22,375 nucleotides of DNA from a virus. Location: positions 1 through 22,375 of the IMG/VR virus record IMGVR_UViG_3300043099_000131; one strand, 5' to 3'. Below are positions 3,873-22,208 of this stretch, piece by piece. Numbering within the stretch: position 1 is the stretch's first letter; each line of letters starts with the position of its first letter. Below the pieces are notes generated by a model, which ran no database searches, was not told the origin of the DNA, and saw nothing but the letters and a program-made list of their open reading frames with translations. The position numbers were made by a program, and so were the translations under genes.

Positions 3873-6800
3873 TTAACCGCGATGACCTAACTCACGGTTC
3901 TGCATGTTTACGCCGGTCGTGATTTGAGGCAACATACCTATGATCTCACGGCGTGTCTGACGAGATATATCGCCAGTAATATTGATGTGTACTGTAGTTG
4001 CGCTTGCGTCTGGTTGCTTATGCGTTGCAATAAGACTCTTACTAACAGCAGCCGAAGGTAGCGTCGGAGCAAGACTGTTGCTAACAAGACCGCCATCCGC
4101 AAATTTAGGCATGTTGCCAGAATTAATACTCTGTAACAGATTCCTATACTTGCCAGCACTCTTCGCATTTACAACAAACTCTCCATTCGATAGCATTGCC
4201 ATGATAGAATCAGATGTACCGCTACCTGGTCCATACACAGCGCCGCCGTCTGAGAACTTAAAGACGCTAGAGAGCCAACCACCAACTTCATCTAAGAAGC
4301 CAGGAGTCGGAGGGCCAACACCACCTGCTGCAGCCGATACGCCGGTTGAGCCGAAGTTAAGCAAGCCTCCGATTCCGCTCAGCAGACCTCCACCACCTGC
4401 ACTACCACCTATACCACCGCCTTGAAAGAGACCCTTCAAGAAACCCCAAGCACTATTTAATGCCTTTGTAAGATCCGCCCAACCATTATCTAGTGTTTTG
4501 CGGAGTCCAGTCCAAGCCTCTGATAGCACTTTTCCAAACGATGTAGCACCTGTATCAAGTGTTGCTTTGAGACTGGAATCGCCAGCACTACTGTTTGGAG
4601 AGCCCTTTCCATCCGGTGTTGCCGCCTTAGTGCCAAAAATGTTGAGGCGCTCTAATACCTTTGCCACCGTCCCTACTATTGTTACAGGACTTTTTGCAAT
4701 CATACCTGAGGCTACTCCAGCAATGTCACTGACACCGAATCCAGCTATATTGAAGGCACCGCTACCACCGCTACCACCGCCACTATTACCACCGCTACTA
4801 GCCGCATTCTTTGTAGATTCTGCAGGAGTCTCTACGCTAGCAGATACAGCTGCTGCTACTGGAATAGGAGTTGGTGCAGTGACTTCTAAGGGTTTCCCTG
4901 TAACTGCCGCTATTAGCTTGGCAATCTCAGCGGTAACTCTGTCTATCGCTGCAATAATAGTCCTGAGAAGCTCAGTAAGGCCTCCTGCTATAGAGTCCTT
5001 TACAGTCACTACAGCCTCAGTAGCACGCTTCCATCCTTCGGTTACTCCGGTTTGCACTCTACCTAATAGCGTTGTTTGTTCCACAGCTTGCGGAGTGCTT
5101 ACAGCGGTTACCACAGGCTTCTGTGTTGCTTGGGTAGCTGCTTTAGCTTCTGCTAAAACTGGCTTTACAGCCTCTACCACAGCAGCTTTAGTTTGCTCTA
5201 CTATCGGTTCAACAGGGACTACTGGTGGCTTCTGCACAGCTACTTTGATCTCTTCTAGAGCTACCTTTGTAGCCTCTGTAGCAGCCTTAGACTGATCCAG
5301 CAACGGCGCAACAGCGGAAGCTACAGCTGTCTTTGTCTCCTCAGATGCAGTCTTTACAGCCTCAACCGTAGCCACTTTAGACTGCTCTATTATCGGCGTA
5401 ACGATGGCTTCCACAGCTGCTTTCGGTTCTTCAGGAGTAACCTTTGTAGCTTCTACATTTGCTAGCCTAACCTCAGGCACGCCTTCGAATGTTATAGGCT
5501 TTATCGCTAGCTCACTCTTAGGTAAGAATACCTTGCTAGCTACATTCTCTGGGAATGAAGCATCAACTTGACTGAATACATCACTATTGACACTCTTGGT
5601 ATCCCATCTCTGAGGACCAAGTGAAGCCTTTATGGACTGCGGTGATAACCTGCTGTATAGCTCAAGGTTTGCGTTAACGCTCTCATTAATCTTCTGATTA
5701 ACACTTGCGCTTACTTTATCCTGCGTCGTCTCAGGCGTAGTTAAAGCTTCTTTAAAAAGATTCTGAGTAGGTATTACGTTAGGATCACCTTTATTCTCAT
5801 AAAAGGGACTATATATCTTGGCACCAGGTGGGCTAATCACTTTAGTAGAGACTAAACCAACTTGTGCAGCCAGCGCATTAACTGAATTAGCTACTTCACC
5901 AAACACCGTGGCAAGCACTGTCTTCAACTCGGTTCCAAGGAACTTAAAGTCGTCAAACACAAAGTTGGTAAAGCCTTTTGAGAACGATGATATCACCTGA
6001 TTACTATAAGCTACTGCAATCTCTTCCCAGAAGCCTACATCATCTTTCTCACGACCTTTAAGCGACTTAAAGATGCTACCTTCGAAAGAAGATTTAAACT
6101 GATTTGCAGAGTCTTCTCCGATCTTTTTACTGGTCTGGGAGAGCTTCTTCTGCTCTCCACTATAGAATGAGCCAGGTTGTGGCACCTCTCTTAATGTCCG
6201 ATTTCCCAACGCAGTCCGCTCTGCATTTGCCGCCATCTTTCCAAAGTATGTACCCTGTGCAGTATCCCTCTGTATTTTATCAAGAGACTCTGCAATAGAG
6301 TTAAGCATTGCCAGATCTTCAGTGCTATCTGTCAGACCCGCTAGGCTGACGCCCATTATTCCTTGGGCCTCTAATTGCTTCTGCATCAACGACTTAGCCT
6401 CATCATTAGACGTTACTCCAGCCAAGAGCTGACTTGCTGTCTTTTGTGGAGGCTTAGTGTTCTTCTCTAACTGCGTAAATGTTTCCTTAAGCTCAGCAGC
6501 GGCAATCGGATTCTTCTTAGCTTGGGCTTCTAGCGTCTTCAGACTCGACAGTTCAGAGACAATATTCTTGAGCTCAAATGAACTCTTATCCTTCAATGCC
6601 TCTGCTGTAACATTTGCATTTCCAGACATGCCACCGATTGATCTGTTCAGCAGACCTGCTAATACATCAAAGTAGTTCTCAGCAGATGTGTCCTTTAGAA
6701 TCTGTTCAGGAGTTGGTGCACCTGGCACAGAGAAGGATTTCTGATCTACAGCTAATCCACCGGCAGCTGTTACTGTGCCGCTCTTGCCCTTGAAGAAAGC

Positions 6801-9800
6801 ACTTGCCTTACCCGCTAAGTCAAACTTACCGCCAGATAATTGGTCAAACAGCTTGGCGATTGACTCAATAAAGTTAGTGAACATAGCTGAAATACCATCC
6901 ATCGTACTAGCAGTGCCGCCCTTTGCTGCCTCATAATACTTAGCAACGGTTGCTGCGTAGTCTTTCGTATAAGTACCTTTGCCAGTGTCTTTTCCGTCTT
7001 TATCGAGTAATTTCTCACGATATGTAGGTATGATGTTCCCATCTTTGTCCATAGAGCCAGGGCCGCCATGATAAGCAGCTGCAACCTTTATAACACTTCC
7101 ATTGTACTTAGTTGCAAGATCTTGCACATGCCTGTGGGCAACTTCAAGTCTATCAGCCTCTATTGCAAAGTTCTTCGAACCATTGAAGAACTCTTTATTA
7201 ACGCCGTCAAATGTGCTCTTTATTATCTGAGCGGCTCCAGTAGCGCCTTTAGAGCTGACCGCTTCGCTGCCGCTGCCCTCTCTTTTTACCAATGCATTAA
7301 AGAGTAGTTTCACATCCTCTGGTGAAGAGGCTATAGGACTGCCTGCGCTAAACTTTGAAATCTTGCCATTGTTGATCATTTCGAGCAGAGCTCTATTACC
7401 TTTTACAGCAGACGCCCTGACTACGAATTCTCCATTTGATAGTAATGCAGGTATCTTGTCATCAGTAGGTCCACCCTCACCATATATCATACCACCAGTG
7501 GCTCTACGGACTGCAAGTCTATCCATCATCCTTGGATCAGTACCAAAGTTGGTAAGTAATGCTATTAGAAGACTCTTATAGCCAGCATGATCACGCTTCT
7601 CGTCAAGTCTAGCTGTTAGCGTACCACCGTACTTTCTATCAAACGCATCAAATACCATGCGACCATTGTCGTTATTATTCGAGATGCCATCATTAGCCAT
7701 ATCCCATGCACTCTTGGGGATTATGTTATTGCCTACATTCATTACATCTTTAAAGGCAGTAAATACATTAGCGGCATTTAATTCTATAGCACCTTCGATC
7801 AGACCTTTAACAGATTCTAGCTTTCTGAATTCATCGTGTATGTAATGCTGCGCAACATACTGATGATTATAGACTGCAGTATTGTCATCTGCCTTCTTGC
7901 TAGCAACTCTACCCTTAAATCTATCATTATCCTCTGCAAACTTCTCGGCTCTTATCTCAGATAAAATACGGGGTTCATTAGCATACTCATGCACGAATGC
8001 ATACTTATCCTTACCTTTGTAGTTTTCAAACTGAGCCTTCAGGTCTAGTGCATGCCCCATCTCATGTAGAGTGGTTATATAAGCTCCGTAGAAGCCCAAG
8101 TCGCCCTCATTGTCGAGCGCCGGGATATCAACCGCAGGTTGGTCTGCATAGAAGTAAAAGGCTTCATTCGTGGGACTAGCATATCTCATCCGGAGGGCAT
8201 TGCCTCCAAGTTGATGTGACCAGATCTTTGGATCATAGAACGACTTCAATGCCGGACTGGTATCGAATTCCCTCTTATAACCCATAACCTGGGCGTACGC
8301 TTGAGAGAAATCAGCAGCATTCGGAACAAATCCAGCCCTAGTATCTTGCCAGCGTGCTTCAAACGGCGCTATAGCAGGAGGCCTCGTAGATGGCCATCCT
8401 CCTTCAGGTTCATCAGCATCATCATCTCTGAAAGGGAAGCCACCAAAATGCTCTAGCAAGGCTCTGCGAATTTCAGTCTCTGAGAGATCGCTGAAAGGTC
8501 TAGGCTCAAAGTGACTCGTAGATGGTATTAGTTGAGTTGGTCCAAATGCGCCAAAGTGCTGTGAGAGCGCCGACGTTATTTCAGCATCAGAAAGGTCACC
8601 AAACACGAAACCACCATCTGCGTAACGCCTACCACTATTGATGGATTCTAGTAATGACCTATTCTTGCTCGTAGCAGCCGCATTTACGACGAATTCGCCG
8701 TCTGAGAGAAGCGCTGGAATACTGTCTGATCTAGAGGTACCTGGCCCTCTAATGCTTCCACCTGAGGCTCTCGCCTGCGCTTGAGGCCTCTCGAAACCTG
8801 TCGGCCCTGTATACCCAAATTGAATGATACCTTCCTGATTAGAGCTTCTACCAAAGCCACCTTGCTGCGCTGTTGCCTCGAAAGATTTAAGGCTTTGATA
8901 TTCCCGTACTTGTGCTAAAAACTTACCCGCCATGTCATACATGGCCACTAAGTGCATCGTAAGGATCTCGAATAACGACTTAGTCTTTACAATCTCCAGG
9001 ACACTGGCAGTAATCGATACAAAACTTTCCGCTATAAACCCTATTAAGTTAAAGCTTTCAAAAGCCTTCTTCAACCGATAAAAGGCATCTATAAAGTCAA
9101 CTAATGGTTGAAACAATGTTCTGAGAATATCCTGCATTCTCTGCAAGGCTTCATTGAACTTCGATGAGATAAGGGTGGATATGTTTTCTACGACTACAGT
9201 AAAGCTCCTTAAGCGCGGTTCTACGTGTTTCTCAAACCAACCACTAGGTTCTGATGTGTCACGAACTTGTGCTGACAGCTGAGGAGTAATCTGCTGAGTG
9301 TGCATAGAAGGTCGCATCTTGGCAATGAAAGGATCTAAGATGTCTTTCTTGACCTTCTCCCATGCCGCTAGCAGCATTGGCCCTAACTTCTCCCAATTCG
9401 TCCAAGCTAATGCCAGCGCTCCAATGACTAATAAAATCAGTCCAGGAATAGAAAATAGTGCTCCTGCAATCCCTGCAGCTATCGCACCTATTCCGGCAAT
9501 AGCGGCGTTGATAACACCCGCAATCGACGCTCCAATCAAGCCACCGATAGTCTGCGCACCAATGCCATAGGCTATTGTAACACCTATCTTCTCCCAATTG
9601 GTGGCATTTTGCATGCCCTCAGCCACTTGTCTGCCATACTCAATACCGGCCATTCCAGCGAAACCGGCTCCAATACTTGTAGCTGTATTAGAGATGCCCG
9701 TTCTAAGCGCAGCACCTCTCTCTGCTATCTGAGCAACAAGGGGCGCGACTCTGGCAGTAATCTGAGCATTTTGCGCGGTCATTCTTGCAAGGTTCTGGAT

Positions 9801-12233
9801 AGTGGCTGCCGTAGCTGTACCCGCTGCAACTTGCGCCTGTGCTGCGGCTATAGCAGGCTGTGTTCTCGCGACTTGACGATTAGCGTATCCTACCTCGCCA
9901 CTTGCAACAATACCTTGTGCAAAGTTACCAGGAGCTCTGACAAGCGTTAATGCCAATGCTCCGAAATATGCGCGTCCTGCTGCAAATAAGAGTGATAGCT
10001 TAGCGATAATAGACAGCGACTCTCCGAGTCCGCCTCTACCAAAAATACCGTCGCCAATAACTGCTTTCCATGCAGATGAACCAGCCGTTATTACAGCCTT
10101 TACAAGACCTCCAATAAAGCTATCCACCTGATCTTTATAGAAGCTCTGGCCGATTGTCAGACCACCTGTTATTTGCACAATAGCTGACAGCGCATCCCGC
10201 ACAAAGCCAGCTGCAAATGTCTTGTAGACAAGCCCCATTGCGCCAATAGTCGCCCCTAACACAACAGGTATTTGCCATTCAACTGGCATTGAATTCAGGA
10301 CGTCATGCACTATTGTACCAAAGTCACGCTTAGAACCAACTTCACCAGTTCTCTTTGGCCCAAATGGAACTCGCGATTCGTTGTCGGCACCACCGCCAGG
10401 GACTCTATCCTGAAGACCGAATATCTGTTTTATAGCACGAACTATTTTCAAGGATGAGCTATTCCATGCGTCCACTACTCGTAGAATAGTAGGACCTAGG
10501 TATCTCTTCAGTGAGTCAGCAATATTCTGACCAATACCTAGTAAAGTTCCACTACGAGCACTACGCGTCTCCTCAGAGACATTAGGTGAGTAATCACGCT
10601 GAAGTGGAGTATCGGTAAGATTCATTAAACCTTTTACGGTTAAGAACAGACCGCCAATACCTAACGCTGACTTTAAGCTGTTTCGGATGATGCCTTGAAA
10701 GAGTCTGGGAAATACGGCCACAAACACATCTAGGGCCGTACCGATAGCTCTTCCGACCGTCCTCCCCATAAATCCAAGGAAGCCTGTCTGCCACGCGATC
10801 AATGTGCCTAGAAGCACAGTACCCCATTTGATGTCGCTGATATCAAACATCTTACCAAGGTTAATCTTTGTACCAGCCAGCTTCTCAAATTGAGCGCTAG
10901 CGTAATCTACGAACTTATCTACGTACGCTAGGGGCGCCTCTAATAACTTTGCCATCCAATCAATGACTCCTTGAACTAAATCAGGAATCCATGAATGACC
11001 AATAACACGGTCATATAGCCACCAGAAGGCACGCTCGACTGTGTAAGTAAAGTCAACGACTTGCTTAGCCACTAAACCTAACTTATCAAAGAAATCACTA
11101 GCATGTATTTGTTGTATATCGAACTTAGCAACGACCTTTAATACGCTAAAACCTGTAAATCTTTCTAAGGTTTCGTCCAGCATGCTACCTATATTGCGAA
11201 TGCCGTATTCTATGTTGCCTAGGAAGCGATAGAAAGATGCAATATGAAATTCAAGGTTATTTGCAAACTTCGCTAGACCAATTGCTGCCGCATTGATGAG
11301 GTCTGGGAGTCCTTGGCCATCACTCTTTATACCTTTGAAAGCAGCGAATAAGAGAAAGAACGAATTTCCAATATTCGTGAAAGCCTGGCTGTAGGTTACA
11401 CCGACGTTAGCAAATTCTTTATTGATCGCATGCGTCTGTTTCAAGAGACCTTCAAACACGGTCTTTCCTGTCAGTTGACCAGCTTCACCAAGCGTTCTTA
11501 ACTGCCCTATAGTTACACCGATACCATCAGCAATTTGCTTAGCAAGTGTCGGGAGCTGCTCCATCACCGATCTTAACTCATCTCCGCCTAGCCGATTAGA
11601 GGCAAAGCCCTGACCTAGCTGAGTAAGAGCAGCGGCAGCACTAGCGGCGTCTACGCCTGCTGTTGCTACGCTTCTGGATATATTCTGTGTTACAATACCA
11701 ATCTGCTGCTGCGATGCTCCGAAATCAGCAGATGCAGCCGACAGCTTACGATACAGATTGATAACAGTCGAGAGTTCTGTGCGAGTTCCTAATGCTACGT
11801 CGCGAGTAATTGCGAAGCTAGACGACAGGTCACCTTCAGTATTCGAGACTTGCTTAAGTTGTGACAGTGATGCTGTTAGCTTATCAGATAAGCTGATGAA
11901 GGTGGCAATACCTGTGGTTGCGGCGGTTAACGAAACGAGCCCTATGGCTAGCGATTTAAAGCTCTCTCCGGCCGACTTCACAGAGCTATTCAGCTCACTC
12001 ATCGCTGTGTTAGCATCCTTTGCTTCAGATGCTACGGTCTTCAGGTTGGTCTTCAGTGTAATCGGCTTATTTAACGTAGCCCTCACAGAACTGAAATTGG
12101 ACTCAACCTTACTGAAATCTGTTTGTACCTTTATCCTAGCACTCTTGGCGATACGCTCTACTGTCTCTTTTAATTTTGCTAGATCAGTTTTGGCTTGCGT
12201 AGAGTCTGTGATAACTTTTACTTCAATGGCCAT
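3873..12233 (-). CDS. Tape measure protein with zincin and lytic transglycosylase domains
   Basis: This 2786-residue protein sets tail length and fills the tube. Residues about 110-300 match the tape-measure N-terminal domain (for example NLYRKLSAASADFG and LGGDELRSVMEQLP). A long hydrophobic region lies at about 885-945. A zincin domain lies at about 1295-1570, with HEMGH at 1390-1394 and a likely third ligand Glu1426 in SEIRAEKFAED. A lytic transglycosylase domain lies at about 1637-1772, with catalytic-type Glu1652, SSKGATGAAQI (1660-1670) and AAAYHGGPG (1718-1726). Three GEFVVN modules (about 1156-1208, 1578-1631, 2661-2715) lie around these domains. An Ala/Glu/Lys/Thr repeat region (about 2261-2375) and Gly-rich linkers (about 2480-2492, 2605-2623) follow. 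AAAGGAG stands six bases before the ATG. By a common rule of about 0.15 nm per residue the tail could be 350-420 nm. The tape measure call is very secure; the enzyme activities are motif-based. Confidence 0.96.
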   Translation of the reverse strand: MAIEVKVITDSTQAKTDLAKLKETVERIAKSARIKVQTDFSKVESNFSSVRATLNKPITLKTNLKTVASEAKDANTAMSELNSSVKSAGESFKSLAIGLVSLTAATTGIATFISLSDKLTASLSQLKQVSNTEGDLSSSFAITRDVALGTRTELSTVINLYRKLSAASADFGASQQQIGIVTQNISRSVATAGVDAASAAAALTQLGQGFASNRLGGDELRSVMEQLPTLAKQIADGIGVTIGQLRTLGEAGQLTGKTVFEGLLKQTHAINKEFANVGVTYSQAFTNIGNSFFLLFAAFKGIKSDGQGLPDLINAAAIGLAKFANNLEFHIASFYRFLGNIEYGIRNIGSMLDETLERFTGFSVLKVVAKFDIQQIHASDFFDKLGLVAKQVVDFTYTVERAFWWLYDRVIGHSWIPDLVQGVIDWMAKLLEAPLAYVDKFVDYASAQFEKLAGTKINLGKMFDISDIKWGTVLLGTLIAWQTGFLGFMGRTVGRAIGTALDVFVAVFPRLFQGIIRNSLKSALGIGGLFLTVKGLMNLTDTPLQRDYSPNVSEETRSARSGTLLGIGQNIADSLKRYLGPTILRVVDAWNSSSLKIVRAIKQIFGLQDRVPGGGADNESRVPFGPKRTGEVGSKRDFGTIVHDVLNSMPVEWQIPVVLGATIGAMGLVYKTFAAGFVRDALSAIVQITGGLTIGQSFYKDQVDSFIGGLVKAVITAGSSAWKAVIGDGIFGRGGLGESLSIIAKLSLLFAAGRAYFGALALTLVRAPGNFAQGIVASGEVGYANRQVARTQPAIAAAQAQVAAGTATAATIQNLARMTAQNAQITARVAPLVAQIAERGAALRTGISNTATSIGAGFAGMAGIEYGRQVAEGMQNATNWEKIGVTIAYGIGAQTIGGLIGASIAGVINAAIAGIGAIAAGIAGALFSIPGLILLVIGALALAWTNWEKLGPMLLAAWEKVKKDILDPFIAKMRPSMHTQQITPQLSAQVRDTSEPSGWFEKHVEPRLRSFTVVVENISTLISSKFNEALQRMQDILRTLFQPLVDFIDAFYRLKKAFESFNLIGFIAESFVSITASVLEIVKTKSLFEILTMHLVAMYDMAGKFLAQVREYQSLKSFEATAQQGGFGRSSNQEGIIQFGYTGPTGFERPQAQARASGGSIRGPGTSRSDSIPALLSDGEFVVNAAATSKNRSLLESINSGRRYADGGFVFGDLSDAEITSALSQHFGAFGPTQLIPSTSHFEPRPFSDLSETEIRRALLEHFGGFPFRDDDADEPEGGWPSTRPPAIAPFEARWQDTRAGFVPNAADFSQAYAQVMGYKREFDTSPALKSFYDPKIWSHQLGGNALRMRYASPTNEAFYFYADQPAVDIPALDNEGDLGFYGAYITTLHEMGHALDLKAQFENYKGKDKYAFVHEYANEPRILSEIRAEKFAEDNDRFKGRVASKKADDNTAVYNHQYVAQHYIHDEFRKLESVKGLIEGAIELNAANVFTAFKDVMNVGNNIIPKSAWDMANDGISNNNDNGRMVFDAFDRKYGGTLTARLDEKRDHAGYKSLLIALLTNFGTDPRMMDRLAVRRATGGMIYGEGGPTDDKIPALLSNGEFVVRASAVKGNRALLEMINNGKISKFSAGSPIASSPEDVKLLFNALVKREGSGSEAVSSKGATGAAQIIKSTFDGVNKEFFNGSKNFAIEADRLEVAHRHVQDLATKYNGSVIKVAAAYHGGPGSMDKDGNIIPTYREKLLDKDGKDTGKGTYTKDYAATVAKYYEAAKGGTASTMDGISAMFTNFIESIAKLFDQLSGGKFDLAGKASAFFKGKSGTVTAAGGLAVDQKSFSVPGAPTPEQILKDTSAENYFDVLAGLLNRSIGGMSGNANVTAEALKDKSSFELKNIVSELSSLKTLEAQAKKNPIAAAELKETFTQLEKNTKPPQKTASQLLAGVTSNDEAKSLMQKQLEAQGIMGVSLAGLTDSTEDLAMLNSIAESLDKIQRDTAQGTYFGKMAANAERTALGNRTLREVPQPGSFYSGEQKKLSQTSKKIGEDSANQFKSSFEGSIFKSLKGREKDDVGFWEEIAVAYSNQVISSFSKGFTNFVFDDFKFLGTELKTVLATVFGEVANSVNALAAQVGLVSTKVISPPGAKIYSPFYENKGDPNVIPTQNLFKEALTTPETTQDKVSASVNQKINESVNANLELYSRLSPQSIKASLGPQRWDTKSVNSDVFSQVDASFPENVASKVFLPKSELAIKPITFEGVPEVRLANVEATKVTPEEPKAAVEAIVTPIIEQSKVATVEAVKTASEETKTAVASAVAPLLDQSKAATEATKVALEEIKVAVQKPPVVPVEPIVEQTKAAVVEAVKPVLAEAKAATQATQKPVVTAVSTPQAVEQTTLLGRVQTGVTEGWKRATEAVVTVKDSIAGGLTELLRTIIAAIDRVTAEIAKLIAAVTGKPLEVTAPTPIPVAAAVSASVETPAESTKNAASSGGNSGGGSGGSGAFNIAGFGVSDIAGVASGMIAKSPVTIVGTVAKVLERLNIFGTKAATPDGKGSPNSSAGDSSLKATLDTGATSFGKVLSEAWTGLRKTLDNGWADLTKALNSAWGFLKGLFQGGGIGGSAGGGGLLSGIGGLLNFGSTGVSAAAGGVGPPTPGFLDEVGGWLSSVFKFSDGGAVYGPGSGTSDSIMAMLSNGEFVVNAKSAGKYRNLLQSINSGNMPKFADGGLVSNSLAPTLPSAAVSKSLIATHKQPDASATTVHINITGDISRQTRREIIGMLPQITTGVNMQNRELGHRG
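4089..4253 (-). repeat. GEFVVN module, copy 3 (tape measure residues 2661-2715)
   Basis: This copy starts SDGGAVYGPGSGTSDSIMAM, continues LSNGEFVVNAKSAGKYRNLL and ends near ADGG. It matches copies at 7341-7502 and 8610-8768 in the pattern GG...GPG..SDSI.A.LS.GEFVV.A......LL..IN.G. The motif is common in tape measure proteins; its function is not established. Confidence 0.85.
5109..5453 (-). repeat. Degenerate Ala/Glu/Lys/Thr tandem repeats in tape measure
   Basis: Residues about 2261-2375 contain roughly four degenerate units of 28-33 residues. Each ends in a form of (E/D)Q(S/T)KxA: IIEQSKVA, LLDQSKAA and IVEQTKAA, and the last ends VLAEAKAA. Units start with EATKV, TVEAVK, TEATKV and VVEAVK. 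The composition fits a long helical or extended segment, as expected for a length-setting region that can grow or shrink by unequal recombination. Confidence 0.75.
6918..7325 (-). other. Lytic transglycosylase (SLT-type) domain within tape measure
   Basis: Residues about 1637-1772 of the tape measure protein carry the order expected of goose-type/SLT lytic transglycosylases. The catalytic-type Glu1652 sits in VKREGSGSEAV. It is followed by SSKGATGAAQI (the usual S.kGA.GLMQ box, with GLMQ changed to GAAQ), AAAYHGGPG (the usual AAYNAGPG box), and a closing KDYAATVAKYY motif. The domain cuts peptidoglycan glycan strands. In a tape measure protein it would open the cell wall during DNA entry. Confidence 0.85.
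7341..7502 (-). repeat. GEFVVN module, copy 2 (tape measure residues 1578-1631)
   Basis: This copy runs ATGGMIYGEGGPTDDKIPAL and then LSNGEFVVRASAVKGNRALL. It lies exactly between the zincin and the lytic transglycosylase domains, so it behaves like a linker between enzyme cassettes. Confidence 0.85.
7494..8351 (-). other. HEMGH zincin metallopeptidase-like domain within tape measure
   Basis: Residues about 1295-1580 of the tape measure protein hold TTLHEMGHALD, a canonical HExxH zinc site (His1390, Glu1391, His1394; bases 8052-8066 read CATGAGATGGGGCAT on the minus strand). About 32 residues later SEIRAEKFAED offers Glu1426 as third ligand, in a context like the E..A..FA helix of ImmA/IrrE-type and related gluzincins. 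The substrate is unknown: host envelope protein, peptide crosslinks, or the tape measure itself are all possible. Confidence 0.7.
8433..8597 (-). repeat. Duplicated DLS-x-x-EI...HFG motif in tape measure
   Basis: Residues 1213-1230 (DLSDAEITSALSQHFGAF) and 1249-1266 (DLSETEIRRALLEHFGGF) are the same 18-residue motif repeated 36 residues apart, right after GEFVVN copy 1 and before the zincin domain. It looks like a short amphipathic helix pair that arose by internal duplication. Confidence 0.8.
8610..8768 (-). repeat. GEFVVN module, copy 1 (tape measure residues 1156-1208)
   Basis: This copy runs ASGGSIRGPGTSRSDSIPAL and then LSDGEFVVNAAATSKNRSLL and ends ADGG. It marks the boundary between the hydrophobic, membrane-like half of the tape measure and the enzyme cassettes. 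Confidence 0.85.
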
Positions 12234-14958: not shown

Positions 14959-15435
14959 TTAGTTAGCCCTCCACCAACTGTTTGCTCCGGCATTAACTAG
15001 CATAGGTTTTATCGTTCTACGCACATTAGCTGGAATCAAGCTGGCTGGTAAGGTTCTTTCCAATGAGATTGAGCCGACCCTAATACTAACAGCTGAACCT
15101 GTATCATCCTGCAGACCATCGTTATTTAACAAATGATATGCGAGATCCATAGTCGCTGTTACAAGTCTTGTCGGAGACGTCATTGTGAATGTAATATTCG
15201 TGCCGATTCTTGGATCAAAGTATTCGCCTGACCTTGGAAAAGCTAAGGGTTGAGCCTCACCTATAGCAGTTCCGGTCCAAGGCATTTCATCAAGAATGCT
15301 TGTAGCAGTTACAAGTGCCTGTGCCTTCGATGGTGCATCAGCAGAGGTCCATGCAGCAACGTCTAGCCTGTCAGCAAAGTAGGTGTCGGTCTCTGCTACT
15401 GTAGCATACGAGTTTGTACCTTTTACGAGTGCCAT
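14959..15435 (-). CDS. Head-tail adaptor (DnaT-like domain family)
   Basis: This 158-residue protein begins MALVKGTNSYATVAETDTYF, and continues SKAQALVTATSILDEMPWTG. This start is typical of a phage family that databases often name DnaT-like (DnaT_2) because of a remote domain match; its helical build and slot directly after the major capsid gene mark it as a head-tail connector that docks on the portal. A role in single-strand DNA binding is unlikely here. AAAGGA stands seven bases before the ATG at 15435. The stop is followed after one base by the next neck gene. The connector role is well supported by order; exact contacts are inferred. Confidence 0.8.
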   Translation of the reverse strand: MALVKGTNSYATVAETDTYFADRLDVAAWTSADAPSKAQALVTATSILDEMPWTGTAIGEAQPLAFPRSGEYFDPRIGTNITFTMTSPTRLVTATMDLAYHLLNNDGLQDDTGSAVSIRVGSISLERTLPASLIPANVRRTIKPMLVNAGANSWWRAN

Positions 15436-15451: not shown

Positions 15452-16678
15452 TTAACTATGGAATATCGGCAGAATGCCAAGGCTCAATGCAGACGACGCC
15501 TTGCGAGTCCAAACGCCCTTTGTGTTCAGAATCGGCGTAGCTTCCGACACAGTCAGACCCGATCCAGCGATTGCGATGAAGTCCTTCATAGTGCCGGCAT
15601 CATTGACAGCCATGTAATGGGCATCTTGCGGGAATGCAGTAGTCGTACCATTCCAGTCGTAACCAGCCGGATGAGCAACATAACCCCAACGATACCAGAT
15701 GTCGGTCGAACCGCCACCGTTATAGGCACGTGCATCACGATAAATTTCGACAGGCGTCGGCACAGACAGGTTTTCCATCGCAACCGCACCAGGCAGAACG
15801 ATGAAAGAAGTCTTGGTACCAACGATATCAACACCAGCGCCCAGTTTAAGCTTGTCAAGCTGAGCGGTGCTGAAGCCTTGCGAGGCACGAGTCTGAATCA
15901 AACGGAACTTACCACCGAAGATGGTCTGGAACATAACATTGGCTTCTTGAACGCCATCTTGATCCACCAGATTGGCAGAACGAAGGGACGCAAGAACTTC
16001 AGGGCTAACGACCAGATAGGCATACTCCGGCTCGTAGTCTTTCCACGCCATACCAATGGCTTGCAGGAAGCCTTCAGCACGAGCAGCACCTTGTGCAGTC
16101 GGCGATGCAGCGATGATAGGCTGAGCAGCACCCAGATCCACGTAGAAGCCATAACGAGCTTCTTTAGGATCATTGGTGAAGGTTTGACCGCCCAGACCAA
16201 CGTTAGTAGAGCCTTGACCAACGCAAGCACCGTTAAGGGCTTCAGACAATGCAACACCCTTCAGCACAGACAGGATGGCATTATGCTCGTCTTGAGCGCG
16301 AGTTTCGCCAAAGTCACGCGAGATCTTGGCCAGACCATCTTGACGCGTAACTACTTCCGACAGATTCACTTGCGTAGCACCATGTGTACGAACGGTCTTG
16401 ATATAAGTCGAGAACGCGGAGGTGTATGTAGTGCCGGTGCCATTACCTGCAGCCGTCAGCGAGGCAACGTTGATCGTAGGATCAAGCGGCTTATACCAAC
16501 GGACTTGACCAATGAAGGTCTCGGTGGAGGTGTCAATACTAGGGTTAGAACCCACAATACCAGTGCCGCTAAGCTTCTTGGCGGTGGTGTAAGCCTCGTC
16601 CGAGTAAGCAGACAGAGCAGCTTGCAGGGCATAACTATTGGTATTGCCGTTTACATTACTAAATAGAGCGACAGTCAT
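15452..16678 (-). CDS. Major capsid protein
   Basis: This 408-residue protein follows the scaffold gene and precedes the neck genes, the standard position of the capsid subunit. It has the look of a large coat-protein family: an N-terminal SNVNGNTNSYALQAALSAYS, then TEVV-type region NLSEVVTRQDGLAKISRDFG (residues about 104-123), and a mid-region with AYLVVSPEVLASLRSANLVD, then GGKFRLIQTRAS and YNGGGSTDIWYRWGYVAHPA near the end, as in coat proteins of the HK97-fold class. AAGGA is six bases before the ATG. Its codon choice gives an unbroken 402-codon antisense frame, which I treat as a shadow. Capsid call is firm; the precise subfamily is not determined. Confidence 0.9.
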   Translation of the reverse strand: MTVALFSNVNGNTNSYALQAALSAYSDEAYTTAKKLSGTGIVGSNPSIDTSTETFIGQVRWYKPLDPTINVASLTAAGNGTGTTYTSAFSTYIKTVRTHGATQVNLSEVVTRQDGLAKISRDFGETRAQDEHNAILSVLKGVALSEALNGACVGQGSTNVGLGGQTFTNDPKEARYGFYVDLGAAQPIIAASPTAQGAARAEGFLQAIGMAWKDYEPEYAYLVVSPEVLASLRSANLVDQDGVQEANVMFQTIFGGKFRLIQTRASQGFSTAQLDKLKLGAGVDIVGTKTSFIVLPGAVAMENLSVPTPVEIYRDARAYNGGGSTDIWYRWGYVAHPAGYDWNGTTTAFPQDAHYMAVNDAGTMKDFIAIAGSGLTVSEATPILNTKGVWTRKASSALSLGILPIFHS

Positions 16679-16693
16679 TTTAGATCCTTATTA

Positions 16694-17455
16694 TTATTGT
16701 GGTGGTTGTCCCCCTAATTTGCCAGCAGCTGCCAGTGCGAGGACTTCAGCTTGCGGCATATCAAAGAGTGATTTTGGTTTTGTTGTTGCAGGAGTAGTGA
16801 CAGTAGTTCCAGAAGAACCGCTACCACTATTACTTTTTGTTTTAAATAGAAATGATTGCTCCTCGTTCTTAGAGAAAGCTTCGCAATAATCTCTTACAGA
16901 AATACCAGATCTATGAACCCATACACCTTGCTCATTCTGCGTAAGATTAGTGATTATTTCCTTAAATGCCATGTCAGACGCTTTATCATTCCGGAAAACG
17001 TAACTCTTAAGTGCTTCACGCACAGCAACATCACGACTCAGTTCCGTGTTGTGCTTCTTTAGAGCTGCGATTTCGGCTTGAGCTTCTGCTAAGCGAAGAT
17101 TAGCTACCTCTTGATGCTTACCTTCGTCTTCCATTAATTTAAGTCTAGCTTCTTTCTCCTTGCGCTCCATTTCCTTGAGCTGTTGAAGAGCCTCATCACG
17201 CTGCTTAAAGGCGGCATCAAGCTTACCCTTAATCGGCGACAATTCGGTTTCTACGCGATCTTGAACGAGTCTATTGACCATATCACGATCACGCTCTTCT
17301 TGTGTCATGCGAGCAAGACGAGCAGCTTCCGCTTCTTCAGCTACAATCCGTTCAGCTTCTGCGGCCCTTTTATCGGCAGCAGCCTTCTCAACAGCGGCGG
17401 CATCAGCAGCCTCTTGTGCAGCAATTTCGTCAGCGGTCATGTTTTCATTTGCCAT
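16694..17455 (-). CDS. Capsid scaffolding protein
   Basis: From ATG 17455 this is a 253-residue highly charged, Ala/Glu-rich protein with a long predicted coiled coil (about residues 15-145, for example AEAERIVAEEAEAARLARMT and KQRDEALQQLKEMERKEKEA), a more ordered middle and a Ser/Gly/Thr linker before a short C-terminal helix (SLFDMPQAEVLALAAAGKLG) that would touch the capsid protein. This is the classic build of a scaffold, which shapes the procapsid and then leaves. The frame is open to 17479, but GGAAGGA stands seven bases before ATG 17455, so this is the likely start. It is directly before the major capsid gene. Two small three-base-loop hairpins lie upstream. Confidence 0.88.
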   Translation of the reverse strand: MANENMTADEIAAQEAADAAAVEKAAADKRAAEAERIVAEEAEAARLARMTQEERDRDMVNRLVQDRVETELSPIKGKLDAAFKQRDEALQQLKEMERKEKEARLKLMEDEGKHQEVANLRLAEAQAEIAALKKHNTELSRDVAVREALKSYVFRNDKASDMAFKEIITNLTQNEQGVWVHRSGISVRDYCEAFSKNEEQSFLFKTKSNSGSGSSGTTVTTPATTKPKSLFDMPQAEVLALAAAGKLGGQPPQ

Positions 17456-17545: not shown

Positions 17546-20500
17546 TCACCCGACTCCGTACCAGTACCGATTGTCTTTAAATTCGCTCGGCACCGTCTGC
17601 AAGATATCTTCGTATGTCAGGATATCTGCCTTTGTTAATAATTTCCCACCAACTCTTGATTTGCCAGCTACAGGAATTATGCCAATAGCGATAGCTTCAT
17701 CCATATACTGATTATACAGCGCTCTTGGAAGTCCTCTAGCCAGCATCTCATCTAGCGTAGCTTTCACAGATTCACTTTTAACTGCTGTTGCGTAGATCTC
17801 TCTAAGTGCCTGCCTAGACGCTAACATATCAGCAGCATTGGTGAAGAAAGCATCATGCACCGTGCCGGTCTGAACGTTGTTCTTAGCGCCCCATAGATGA
17901 AATTGTTTTACTAATGTAGCGTCATTAGAATGGTTGCCGTTAACAGCAAAGGCTGTTCTCGCCTTACCTAAGTCTGCTATATCATTAATTTTACCATCCT
18001 TGTTACGTATCTGATCCCATACAGACGGATCTGTCTTTTGCTGTATCTGAACTATATTGTTTATCCATTTCCCACTTGCATCTTTGTATGCTAGCTTTTC
18101 CTCAAAGGTTTGTGTAAAATTTTGTTCCAACACTCTGCCATCGAAGTTGACCCATGGGATAGCGGTCCAACGCTTTTCTAGTTTGTTAGGATAGCCGACT
18201 TCCCAACCTTTTATTAGGTCATCGCCCCACAATTCATGCTTGCCTATCTTGAAGCCGAGGTTGTGAGACACCTTTCCGATAGTTTTACCAGTGAGTCTAT
18301 CTGTTGGAGCTCTCGCACCACTAACTACATTTGATAGGAACTTATCCGGAACATAACCTGGGATCCTACGTAACATCTTTTCTTTGATCGACTCATCCCT
18401 GATCGCCATTGTTTTACTTAGCCACCTAGGAAGTCTTCTACCAGCCTTGTACTCCCCAAAGATAGCTGTCTTTAGGGCGGACGTAACAGAGAAAGCGCTG
18501 TCTGCTGGCTTAGCGTGTTCAGCAAAGTCAGCGGCAAGTCTCCCAAAGAACTTTGTAAAGTCCTTAAGGATCGGAACCTCACTTCTAAGGTTCTCTGACA
18601 TGATCAGTGCTATTTGTTGGAAGTCATCAGGCGTCACAATGTTATTATAGGAACGACCCAACTTTTCAACAAAGTCACGAGTTTGCGGATCAAGGAAATA
18701 AAGTTGCTCCATCATCTCATCACCAGGATGGAGACCCTTATTGAACATCTCCTTAACATCCTGACGCAATGCCTTTAATTCTCTGTAGGTGTCAGGATCC
18801 CAGCTCTCATATCTGGCCATACGCGCGCTAATTTCTGCGAGTACCTTGTCGCGCTCAGTTGCTTTGACTACAAGAAAGTCGTCTTGTTTGTCCAGTATCT
18901 TTGCCAGCTTGGTCTCTACGTTCATGATTCCGGTACGCTCACCAGCACCATACAGCGTTACCATATTTTGTGCCTTAGATGCTTTCCGCAGATCCTTCTC
19001 AGTGAGTCCTAGCTTTTCATTCAGTTTTCTGAAACGAGGATCATTGAAGGTTCTCTCGGCGATTTCATCATACAGCCGCTGTTTCTGGTTAGTAGGGACT
19101 ACGTTGCTTAGTTCTGCTAATTGCTTATTCTTCGTGGTTAATGCAATAATTTGGGCGCCACTACTAGATGCGTCCTGTTCAAGAGCAATTGATATCCTGT
19201 AATTCGATAGCTTAGCAAGGCTACCCGCAGAAAAATCACCTCCTAAGAATTCATTTATCTTTGACATCTCCAAAGCGAATCTAAGAACCTTGCCTTGCTC
19301 TTCACCATCTATTTCAGCAAGGAAGGGCGACTCAAGAATCTTTCTGATGTCATTCGGTTTGCCACGACGCATTAGGTCGCCAATCTCTATTAGCTCCTTT
19401 CTATGAGCTATTGCGATCTGCTGTCTACCTAGTACAGACAATGAATTATAACGACCCTCAAGGGTGTCAGAAGCTCCTCCTAAGAATGAACCAATCTGAT
19501 CTTGAAAATTAAGAAATTCCAACTTACTGAATCTCTTAGCATCTGCTGTATTCAAAAACGGTCTGAATGTCTCACCGCTTTGTGGACCAATAAAACCTCT
19601 CTCGTAGATACGGGCGCGATGGTCTAGAAATGGATGGTTACTAAAGCTGGCATTCTTTGATCTAAGCCACGCCATCGCCTTAAAACGCTCGTAGGAATCA
19701 CCGCGTTCTAATATATACTCCCTGTAGTGATTAAGGTCGGTATAATACTGTGCCTTACCTTTGTCATCTTGGAAGTTTAAGAGCTTTACAATGAAGTCAT
19801 GAAAGTCTTCATCAACTTTATACTTAGCATCTGCCGCCCAGTTCAGTGCTGTCGTCATATCTCTGTCAATTAATCTGGCAGGAAACTCTGAAAAGCTACT
19901 AGAGGAGATAATAGGAATGCGGGTGTCATACATACCATACAAACCACGATCTACAAAGTATGTCTTGTAGCCCTCTCGGACTATCAGTCTATTCTTTCCG
20001 TCCGTAACGCCAACTCTAAGACCGACATCTATCTGTCTATTCATCTTAGAGTAAGCCTGAATCCTAGGATCCACAATACGCAAATTCACTGAGAAGGTAT
20101 CATAGTATGGGCCAAAGTATGCGCCAAAGTTACGGCTCTTCATCCTTCGTTTTTGTACGCCAAATGTCTCTAGCTCGTAGAAACCTTTACTATCTGCCTC
20201 ATCTAACAGCGTTTTACCTAAAGTGAACCATTCATTGCGAGTTCCACGGAAATTAGCACCATTATATAAATCGCGACCTAACGCAATGGCAAGCTGATCT
20301 CTATCAGGACTGTCGGCTAGACTTAGTCTCTTAGCAAACTTTAAGTAGAATTGTTCTATTTCTTCATCACTTAATCTTATCTTTAATTTAACGGGTACAA
20401 CCCTTAAATCAATGACATTACGGAGCTCTCTTGCAATTGTAATAAGCGTGCTATCTTCCCACTTGTTTCTATTAACTATAGTAGGAACGAAGTTATCATG

Positions 20501-22198
20501 CAGACTTTGGAGCTGTACTGGACCTAGTACGGGGTCGATATAGTTGTCTTGTTTTAGCTTAAACAACAAGTTAGCATCCTTGCGAATCTGGGTTTCCATA
20601 TAGTCCGATACGTTCATGATATCAAACTTTATTTGACCCTGTAGTACCGCCTTAAGGTTGCTCCACGACTCACCATTTTCACGGAACCTGCCAAATACAA
20701 TTCTGAGGTTCTCTGTTATTACCGCCCGTTCATTAATACCCATACTATCTTCAAGACCGTCCACAAACTCTTTTATGAACTTCTTGTCAACCGGTAGCAG
20801 CTTGTCGCTCTCGTCTACTAACTTATACACGTTAGTGAGCGTGTCTGGACTCGGTTGATATATTCTTGCGTCATCGTACCTCCCAGTAATTGGGTTGTAC
20901 TTAAGATGTTCTTCTCTAGGCGGCTGCGTTAATACTCTTGTTTTTGTATTCTTCTTATTATGCAGCAAGGTTCCTCTGTAATTTGTTAAGGACAGAGTTC
21001 CGTCGAGTTCTCCTGCCTGTAGCAGATAGTACTCTTTAAGTGCCTTTCTAAGATCTGTGCTCTCTATTATCTCATCAGGCCTAGCTGCACCTATTTTAAT
21101 TGTGTCTAGCTTTTCCTTCGCAAATGCAAATCTACGGGAATCGCCTGGCACACCGAGTCCATTATCTGTAAGCTGTCTGAGCTCCCTGATTCCAATAGAG
21201 TTTCCCTCTGCGTTCGTAAACTTATCCAGAGGCAGTTGTCCTGATCTAAACAACTCAAGTCTTGTTGTATCCCCGAGATGGCGAATCTGCACCTCTGTGG
21301 GTTGCCTTCGCAGCCACTCACTATAGCTCTCCTTTAATGGTGTTTGACCATCATAGAGCGCTATCTGCTTGTCTGATAGGCCGGTTAAATTACGCTTTCG
21401 TATCTGTGCAACACCCTCCAGCGAACCTAGACTTTCATAATCCTTAACAACCGGGATTGTAGAGCTTCTGCAATACCAGTGAGCAGGTGGAAGATGCTCT
21501 GTATCACTGATAGGGTAGATATGACCATCTCTATGAGCGCATAGAGGGGTAGTCCTACTGTCCAATACAGCAACGTACTGCCAGCCTTGTAGAGCTTTTT
21601 CATTTGCGCTATAGACCTGGTGATCAGCTTGTGCATATACGCTAGTTGTAGCTGTAATAACTAGACCGCGAGCCTGATTCTTAGTAATTAGATAAGTACT
21701 CTTTCTCACTTCATCCGCTATATCACTATTGGAAAGGCCTTCTGCGATACCCTTCCTAATGATTTCCTCAATACGAATCTTCTCATTCTTTCCGATGCCA
21801 GCCCACCCTTGGTCCAGCGTCTTATTCTGATATAGAGGCTGACTTAGAACTATATTAGCAGCTACCACGCGAGAAGGTTGCTCCACCTTCCATACTTTAC
21901 CTATAGCTGTACTAAGGTTATTCACAGAAAAATCAACCTGAGATTTAAACAAATCCTTCAAGGATTTAGAGCTGACATTATGGGTGTCTGCCATGGTCTT
22001 AATGATCTCATCATCAAGATCATGTTGGAACTGACTAAAAGATTTACCCTGCAGCTTAGATTTTTTAATCAATTGGTCTACACGTATAGCATGACCGTCA
22101 ATGATCAATTCTACTTTTCCTATACTACGGCGTTCGTAGAGTCTGATCATTGCGGCTCTGTCTACACTCCTATCGTAAATCTGAGTGTTCACATTCAT
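17546..22198 (-). CDS. MuF head protein fused to single-subunit (T7/N4-type) RNA polymerase
   Basis: This protein has 1550 residues (about 175 kDa). Residues about 140-250 carry the MuF/SPP1 gp7 minor head signature: VLDSRTTPLCAHRDG (211-225, Cys220) and LPPAHWYCRS (236-245, Cys243). The C-terminal part carries collinear motifs of single-subunit RNA polymerases. These are DHRARIY (859-865; T7 DFRGRVY); motif A EQDASSSGAQ (1007-1016; Asp1009 = T7 Asp537); motif B RKASKAQNMVTLYG (1071-1084; Arg1071, Lys1075, Tyr1083 = T7 Arg627, Lys631, Tyr639); WVNFDG (1349-1354; T7 WVTPDG); NHSND (1422-1426; T7 VHSQD); and motif C TVHDAF (1446-1451; Asp1449 = T7 Asp812). All catalytic residues are present. 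The frame opens with a GTG at 22216, but AGGAG lies five bases before ATG 22198, so I start there. It sits between the presumed portal and scaffold genes, the normal MuF slot. Packaging and injection are inferred. Confidence 0.92.
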   Translation of the reverse strand: MNVNTQIYDRSVDRAAMIRLYERRSIGKVELIIDGHAIRVDQLIKKSKLQGKSFSQFQHDLDDEIIKTMADTHNVSSKSLKDLFKSQVDFSVNNLSTAIGKVWKVEQPSRVVAANIVLSQPLYQNKTLDQGWAGIGKNEKIRIEEIIRKGIAEGLSNSDIADEVRKSTYLITKNQARGLVITATTSVYAQADHQVYSANEKALQGWQYVAVLDSRTTPLCAHRDGHIYPISDTEHLPPAHWYCRSSTIPVVKDYESLGSLEGVAQIRKRNLTGLSDKQIALYDGQTPLKESYSEWLRRQPTEVQIRHLGDTTRLELFRSGQLPLDKFTNAEGNSIGIRELRQLTDNGLGVPGDSRRFAFAKEKLDTIKIGAARPDEIIESTDLRKALKEYYLLQAGELDGTLSLTNYRGTLLHNKKNTKTRVLTQPPREEHLKYNPITGRYDDARIYQPSPDTLTNVYKLVDESDKLLPVDKKFIKEFVDGLEDSMGINERAVITENLRIVFGRFRENGESWSNLKAVLQGQIKFDIMNVSDYMETQIRKDANLLFKLKQDNYIDPVLGPVQLQSLHDNFVPTIVNRNKWEDSTLITIARELRNVIDLRVVPVKLKIRLSDEEIEQFYLKFAKRLSLADSPDRDQLAIALGRDLYNGANFRGTRNEWFTLGKTLLDEADSKGFYELETFGVQKRRMKSRNFGAYFGPYYDTFSVNLRIVDPRIQAYSKMNRQIDVGLRVGVTDGKNRLIVREGYKTYFVDRGLYGMYDTRIPIISSSSFSEFPARLIDRDMTTALNWAADAKYKVDEDFHDFIVKLLNFQDDKGKAQYYTDLNHYREYILERGDSYERFKAMAWLRSKNASFSNHPFLDHRARIYERGFIGPQSGETFRPFLNTADAKRFSKLEFLNFQDQIGSFLGGASDTLEGRYNSLSVLGRQQIAIAHRKELIEIGDLMRRGKPNDIRKILESPFLAEIDGEEQGKVLRFALEMSKINEFLGGDFSAGSLAKLSNYRISIALEQDASSSGAQIIALTTKNKQLAELSNVVPTNQKQRLYDEIAERTFNDPRFRKLNEKLGLTEKDLRKASKAQNMVTLYGAGERTGIMNVETKLAKILDKQDDFLVVKATERDKVLAEISARMARYESWDPDTYRELKALRQDVKEMFNKGLHPGDEMMEQLYFLDPQTRDFVEKLGRSYNNIVTPDDFQQIALIMSENLRSEVPILKDFTKFFGRLAADFAEHAKPADSAFSVTSALKTAIFGEYKAGRRLPRWLSKTMAIRDESIKEKMLRRIPGYVPDKFLSNVVSGARAPTDRLTGKTIGKVSHNLGFKIGKHELWGDDLIKGWEVGYPNKLEKRWTAIPWVNFDGRVLEQNFTQTFEEKLAYKDASGKWINNIVQIQQKTDPSVWDQIRNKDGKINDIADLGKARTAFAVNGNHSNDATLVKQFHLWGAKNNVQTGTVHDAFFTNAADMLASRQALREIYATAVKSESVKATLDEMLARGLPRALYNQYMDEAIAIGIIPVAGKSRVGGKLLTKADILTYEDILQTVPSEFKDNRYWYGVG
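19172..19174 (-). other. Catalytic Asp1009 codon (motif A) of the polymerase
   Basis: The codon reads GAC on the minus strand within EQDASSSGAQ. It aligns with T7 Asp537 and, together with Asp1449 (codon GAT at 17852-17854), would hold the two metal ions. Confidence 0.85.
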
Positions 22199-22201
22199 GT
22201 T

Positions 22202-22208
22202 TTCTCCT
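22202..22208 (-). promoter_or_regulatory. Ribosome binding site that decides the MuF-polymerase start
   Basis: On the minus strand CAGGAGA is followed by AAAC and ATG 22198. It lies downstream of the GTG at 22216, so that earlier codon is unlikely to be the true start. Confidence 0.8.

Follow-up and report, generated by a model that had tools for sequence, protein, structure and literature searches.

We found that the window analyzed here, a stretch of 22,375 nucleotides of viral DNA occupied by a siphovirus late operon, carries a gene in which a head-morphogenesis domain of the MuF/SPP1 gp7 type is fused to a single-subunit RNA polymerase (RNAP). That the two are joined in one gene is beyond reasonable doubt. 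As predicted from sequence and modeled structure, the polymerase half is a complete T7-fold enzyme with all catalytic residues, and we consider it likely that the protein is a virion polymerase, which would be packaged with the DNA and fire the early genes.

The gene is an unbroken frame on the minus strand with a product of 1550 aa (Table 1), and the plus-strand translation of 17546 to 22198 is riddled with stops. The original prediction of a single frame containing both MuF and polymerase holds for the minus strand, which it had failed to specify, and its residue numbering (D1009, R1071, K1075, Y1083, H1448, and D1449) is exact with the ATG at 22198 as the start. Among Pfam families, MuF (PF04233) matched the protein with 65 bits (E = 1e-17; cut-off, 29.6), and RNA_pol (PF00940) matched its C-terminal half in two collinear segments with 45 bits (cut-off, 22). 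The match to the PHROG "RNA polymerase" profile (E = 5e-16) agrees with the latter, in line with the enzyme identity first proposed.

Table 1. Positions of the fusion gene, its domains and motifs, and neighboring genes in the window
Feature	Position	Strand	Remark
MuF-RNA polymerase fusion gene, 1550 aa	17546..22198	-	ATG at 22198
Ribosome-binding site AGGAG, upstream of the fusion-gene ATG	22204..22208	-	
N-terminal head-morphogenesis region, residues 1-344	21167..22198	-	PHROG 241, E=6e-61
MuF core PF04233, residues 143-247, with LDSRTTPLC...LPPAHWYCRS	21458..21772	-	Pfam
Predicted single-subunit RNA polymerase fold, residues 563-1550	17549..20512	-	Model vs T7 RNAP, Z 25.4
D-x-R-x-R-x-Y motif, D859-Y865 (T7 R425 region)	19604..19624	-	
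Polymerase motif A, DASSSG (D1009 = T7 D537)	19157..19174	-	
Polymerase motif B, R1071...K1075...Y1083-G1084 (T7 R627/K631/Y639)	18947..18988	-	Group I introns here in several relatives
N-G-N-H-S-N-D motif (H1423 = T7 H784)	17921..17941	-	
Polymerase motif C, H1448-D1449 (T7 H811-D812)	17852..17857	-	
Scaffold-like protein	16694..17455	-	PHROG 206; probable start ATG 17455
Major capsid protein	15452..16678	-	PHROG 247
Head-tail adaptor Ad1	14959..15435	-	PHROG 477
Tape measure protein, 2786 aa, SLT domain, siphovirus-type long tail	3873..12233	-	

Downstream of the fusion gene, the window continues with the genes for the scaffold, major capsid, head-tail adaptor, tail tube, and tape measure proteins. 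Its contents are structural genes only, and the second polymerase and the promoter-like motif A described below are known from relatives. In two of these, G004 and the roseophage DSS3_VP1, the MuF-RNAP gene sits between the portal gene, which lies upstream, and the scaffold and capsid genes. The late structural-operon location claimed from the start is borne out. So is the view that this is not a T7-style early gene, as the polymerase is MuF fused and lies in the head operon, and a separate RNAP of the relatives fills the early role. The very long tape measure protein of the window also contains a lytic transglycosylase (SLT) domain.

The polymerase half (residues 396 to 1550) was modeled with AlphaFold2 from a 48-sequence alignment, yielding a pLDDT of 81.8 and a pTM of 0.78. 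The model has the right-hand polymerase fold of T7 RNAP, as anticipated. It matched T7 RNAP elongation complexes with a Z score of 25.4 (3.9 Å over 544 residues), mitochondrial RNAP with a Z score of about 22, and the N4 virion RNAP (vRNAP) with a Z score of 14.5, and a Foldseek search gave an E value of 5e-17 for T7. The label "T7/N4-type" originally given to the enzyme is therefore apt as regards a T7/mitochondrial-like fold and too broad as regards N4, whose virion RNAP is clearly more distant. The N4 vRNAP is 17% identical to the fusion, and the tree places it weakly as sister (68/69), with a very long branch. In the viral structure library BFVD, the top match, far ahead of the others, was a 1463-aa protein, which is the length of the DSS3_VP1 homolog, and the other strong matches were stand-alone or N4-type polymerases. 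When the fusion was aligned with T7 RNAP, N4 RNAPI and RNAPII, and N4 vRNAP, its residues lined up with the equivalents of T7 R425, D537, R627, K631, Y639, H784, H811, and D812. The MuF half was modeled only moderately well (pLDDT, 67), and a fold search with this model matched no solved structure.

We then consider how widely the fusion is conserved. A tblastn search of phage records returned three full-length fusions, in EBPR siphovirus 1 and the roseophages DSS3_VP1 and DSS3_PM1. These homologs (gp47 to gp49 in EBPR siphovirus 1) are 31 to 55% identical to the window protein and are annotated only as head proteins ("minor head protein-like") or as hypothetical. An alignment-based scan of IMG/VR gave at least 532 candidate MuF-RNAP loci, from which we drew a set of 63 intact relatives with the full length in one frame. 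D859, R861, R863, D1009, K1072, K1075, Y1083, G1084, H1423, H1448, and D1449 are invariant in 63/63, and R1071 is conserved in 60, with Q in the other 3 and A in DSS3_VP1. In none of the 63 was the polymerase swapped for another effector. An assembly artifact or chimeric frame was ruled out, given that dozens of independent contigs, as well as isolates, have the same fusion. A shorter MuF protein, the 634-aa gp59 of Pelagibacter phage Kolga (L174), is 29% identical (tblastn) to the N terminus of the window protein; it is too short for a polymerase and so possibly represents a prefusion state.

A scan of the genome_contigs collection yielded just two MuF-RNAP contigs, both binned with one metagenome-assembled genome (MAG), and one of them is phage sized, with a length identical to that of a viral record. 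On the basis of this one scan, a prophage or host gene was ruled out as the source, and the recovery of only two contigs of a single MAG suggests that the lineage is lytic.

In several relatives, the fusion gene is interrupted. EBPR siphovirus 1 (L003, JF412302.1) has a group I intron at positions 23191 to 24055 that is missing from the annotation and includes an HNH gene; the intron cuts polymerase motif B between NMV and TFYG and matches Rfam over its full length (E = 1e-8, below the curated cut-off). Its gp47 and gp49, annotated as separate genes, are two exons of one gene. Ten further group I introns, all above the Rfam cut-off, were identified among the interruptions in three relatives (L018, L022, and L025), where they cluster on the catalytic motifs. 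In these three and in G036, G037, G042, G069, and G070, the MuF-RNAP gene is interrupted up to four or more times. The break points recur around residues 878, 1074 to 1083, 1421 to 1433, and 1448, i.e., at catalytic motifs, and one was found at the CRS motif of MuF. Homing introns prefer conserved sites of working genes, and the intron positions therefore argue for an active enzyme.

The same observations bear on the idea that the polymerase domain is inactive, being a degenerate passenger or a structural module comparable to the effector domains that vary freely on MuF proteins. The available text of a 2017 survey describes many swapped C-terminal domains on such proteins (PMC5512222), and the loss of R1071 in DSS3_VP1 and its replacement by Q in three relatives would fit some decay. 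However, the D, K, Y, H, and D residues are invariant throughout the set of 63, none of its members has exchanged the polymerase for another effector, and group I introns recur on the catalytic motifs, as homing elements do in working genes, so that we regard an inactive module as highly improbable.

In-frame insertions of ∼100 to 230 aa are present near residues 985 to 993 or 1104 in G061, G067, G044, G050, and G068 (L280-L285), with one insertion type occurring at two different sites of the polymerase. Pfam searches with these insertions gave no matches. Inteins were ruled out, as the sequences have neither intein ends nor a Pfam match. By eye, the G050 insert resembles a ParB-like fold.

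A second, stand-alone RNAP of ∼740 to 780 aa is encoded by 15 of the 16 MuF-RNAP relatives of at least 49 kb, and DSS3_VP1 has such an enzyme as well (gp080). In the relatives, it matches PF00940 with up to 227 bits, with interrupted or partial matches in a few cases. The exception is G003; its MuF-RNAP and that of G001 are identical, and the G001 record, although shorter, shows part of the second enzyme. The two polymerases of one genome are about 18 to 22% identical and fall into separate clades of the tree, which rules out the fusion as a recent duplication of the phage's T7-like RNAP. Both T7 RNAP and the relatives' own T7-like RNAP share the fold and catalytic residues of the fusion but have no head domain, are encoded by early or middle genes, are about 18 to 22% identical to the fusion, and occupy a separate branch. 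The T7-like RNAP gene is seemingly interrupted too in G010, G014, G017, and G020. G004 further encodes a primase/helicase and a DNA polymerase. Two other minus-strand genes of this relative encode a reverse transcriptase-domain protein of 791 aa (PF00078, 33 bits; L121:14644-17019) and a 471-aa DUF2828/DUF7788 protein, an RNA-binding protein according to PHROGs (L120:17262-18677).

Nearly all genes run in the same direction. A promoter-like sequence of 25 nt, GCGSAAAN4RGTATCTTATATGA (motif A; distinct from polymerase motif A), occurs mostly between genes, in a cluster of small genes that immediately precedes the gene for the second RNAP. The 8 kb upstream of the latter gene make up 10.5% of the DNA and contain 23 of the 31 sites (P about 1e-16, for related genomes whose sites are not fully independent and with a placement in G006 that assumes that the contig ends join). 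The clustering is seen in 10 of 12 nonredundant genomes, and the GCG, which was outside the search pattern, is present in 22 to 23 of the 23 upstream sites. A blind scan of IMG/VR with the 25-mer returned 103 stretches. Distances from motif A to genes were taken in 80 of these, counting pairs where the second RNAP gene was within reach, and in 58/58 site-gene pairs (46 loci) the gene lay downstream on the same strand, at 706 to 5156 bp. MuF-RNAP is encoded by 21 of the 22 IMG/VR contigs of at least 50 kb that bear motif A, an association that lies within one phage lineage. Searches for motif A in G016, EBPR siphovirus 1, and DSS3_VP1 did not find it, nor was an equivalent found in DSS3_VP1.

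Motif A matches the sigma-70 consensus at 8 of 12 positions at best, and sigma-70-like sites were not enriched in the one early region examined. No conserved hairpin is formed by motif A. From these sequence patterns, we lean toward motif A being a promoter used by the MuF-RNAP. A different motif, CCCGTTAAATTAA (motif B), is distributed genome-wide, with 59 sense and 0 antisense sites at up to one mismatch, 55 being intergenic, and it often stands directly 3′ of the stop codon of MuF-RNAP and ahead of the scaffold gene. A related family, CGTTAAAGAGGGG, is present in DSS3_VP1.

The fusion could also be a virion or assembly protein that acts only late, e.g., in transcription near the procapsid, with the host RNAP reading the early genes and motif A serving as a site for the host or a regulator. 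Its gene does lie in the late operon, with all genes in one direction, and motif A occurs elsewhere too in some relatives (G009, G013, and G017). Against this, motif A retains an invariant 13-base core plus the GCG across phages that are ∼60% identical in protein, unlike sigma-70 sites, and a late-only polymerase would be redundant in the presence of a distinct T7-like enzyme that has a motif of its own. We consider a late-only role quite unlikely.

The idea of a packaged polymerase stands, in our judgment, and is strengthened by the conserved fusion, the second, nonstructural T7-like polymerase, and the upstream motif of early type. The second RNAP gene must be transcribed before its product exists and hence needs an earlier polymerase, either the host RNAP or a delivered one. 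A polymerase encoded in the late operon on a portal-recruited domain is a natural candidate for the delivered enzyme, and motif A is a natural candidate for its promoter. In phage SPP1, the portal brings gp7 into the procapsid, and gp7 aids the onset of infection (PMC6316719); ejection of gp7 into the cell is a proposal. Similarly, the MuF domain would bind the portal during assembly and thereby bring the T7-fold polymerase into the procapsid, in the way that gp6 of SPP1 carries gp7. At infection, the fusion would leave the virion with the DNA or at its front and, as an active enzyme, transcribe the early block from motif A promoters, including the gene for the second, nonpackaged T7-like polymerase. 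The latter would subsequently use motif B promoters to transcribe middle and late genes, among them the fusion gene and the rest of the head operon. We infer from this scheme that early transcription may proceed without the host polymerase. The same cascade has been shown for Thermus phage P23-45 (PMC10770324) and for N4 (PMC12633501).

A packaged fusion might instead mainly pull the genome in, with a polymerase anchored at the portal or channel driving DNA entry by transcribing and early mRNA arising as a by-product. The authors of the P23-45 study propose such a coupling of translocation and transcription for a virion RNAP fused to the tape measure protein (PMC10770324), the MuF domain would put the enzyme at the portal, and the loss of gp7 lowers the infectivity of SPP1 (PMC6316719). 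Motif A, however, is clustered at the early block and not spread evenly along the DNA, which points to promoter-specific gene expression. DNA entry as the main function thus seems unlikely to us, and it does not exclude a delivered polymerase that starts early transcription.

The virion RNAP of N4 (gp50; Schitoviridae) is likewise a large single-subunit polymerase encoded in the structural block, with separate phage RNAP genes located in the early region, and N4 and the lineage of the window have the same two-step polymerase logic. N4 is a podovirus, however, and gp50 has no MuF domain. Membership of the fusion in the N4 family was ruled out by size (1550 aa versus ∼3,500 aa) and virion type, given the siphovirus tail genes of the window, and the fold ranking gives it no support. 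N4 vRNAP uses hairpin promoters, whereas the candidate promoter that the fusion would use is one without a conserved hairpin. In the available text of the 2017 survey, N4-like virion RNAPs are stated to occur solely in N4-like phages (PMC5512222). P23-45 resembles the lineage of the window in being a siphovirus with a polymerase fused to a structural protein and a second, nonvirion polymerase expressed early, but its vRNAP belongs to an unrelated two-barrel family and is fused to the tape measure protein and not to MuF (PMC10770324). MuF domains carry enzymes in other fusions as well (PMC5512222; MuF-VIP2 in Microbacterium phages, PMC7302621), but the cargo consists of toxins or host modifiers, and no RNA polymerase cargo is named in the available parts of these two sources. 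The full-length homologs in DSS3_VP1, DSS3_PM1, and EBPR siphovirus 1 are annotated without a polymerase, and the EBPR siphovirus 1 gene is intron split. In the literature searched, which did not include the primary paper on DSS3_VP1, a MuF-RNAP fusion has not been described, and an earlier mention is possible.

The fusion would accordingly be a virion RNA polymerase that differs from the known ones in both its polymerase lineage and its carrier. On balance, we favor the view that long-tailed phages of a large and mainly uncultured lineage have evolved a T7-fold virion polymerase independently of N4 and P23-45, deliver it through the portal by means of MuF, and start infection free of host RNAP from a linear 25-nt promoter before handing over to a second T7-like polymerase. 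More than 500 candidate contigs in a single collection show that the lineage is common, and its only annotation to date is "head morphogenesis." The isolates DSS3_VP1 and DSS3_PM1 make packaging, independence from host RNAP, and the predicted promoter directly testable, and an enzyme of T7 fold that uses a new linear promoter could serve as an orthogonal polymerase. If our reading is correct, tailed phages would have a third way, after N4 gp50 and the tape measure fusion, of bringing what is needed to start transcription into the cell, and MuF proteins, which are known mostly for carrying toxins, would gain a cargo with a function in the life cycle of the phage itself.
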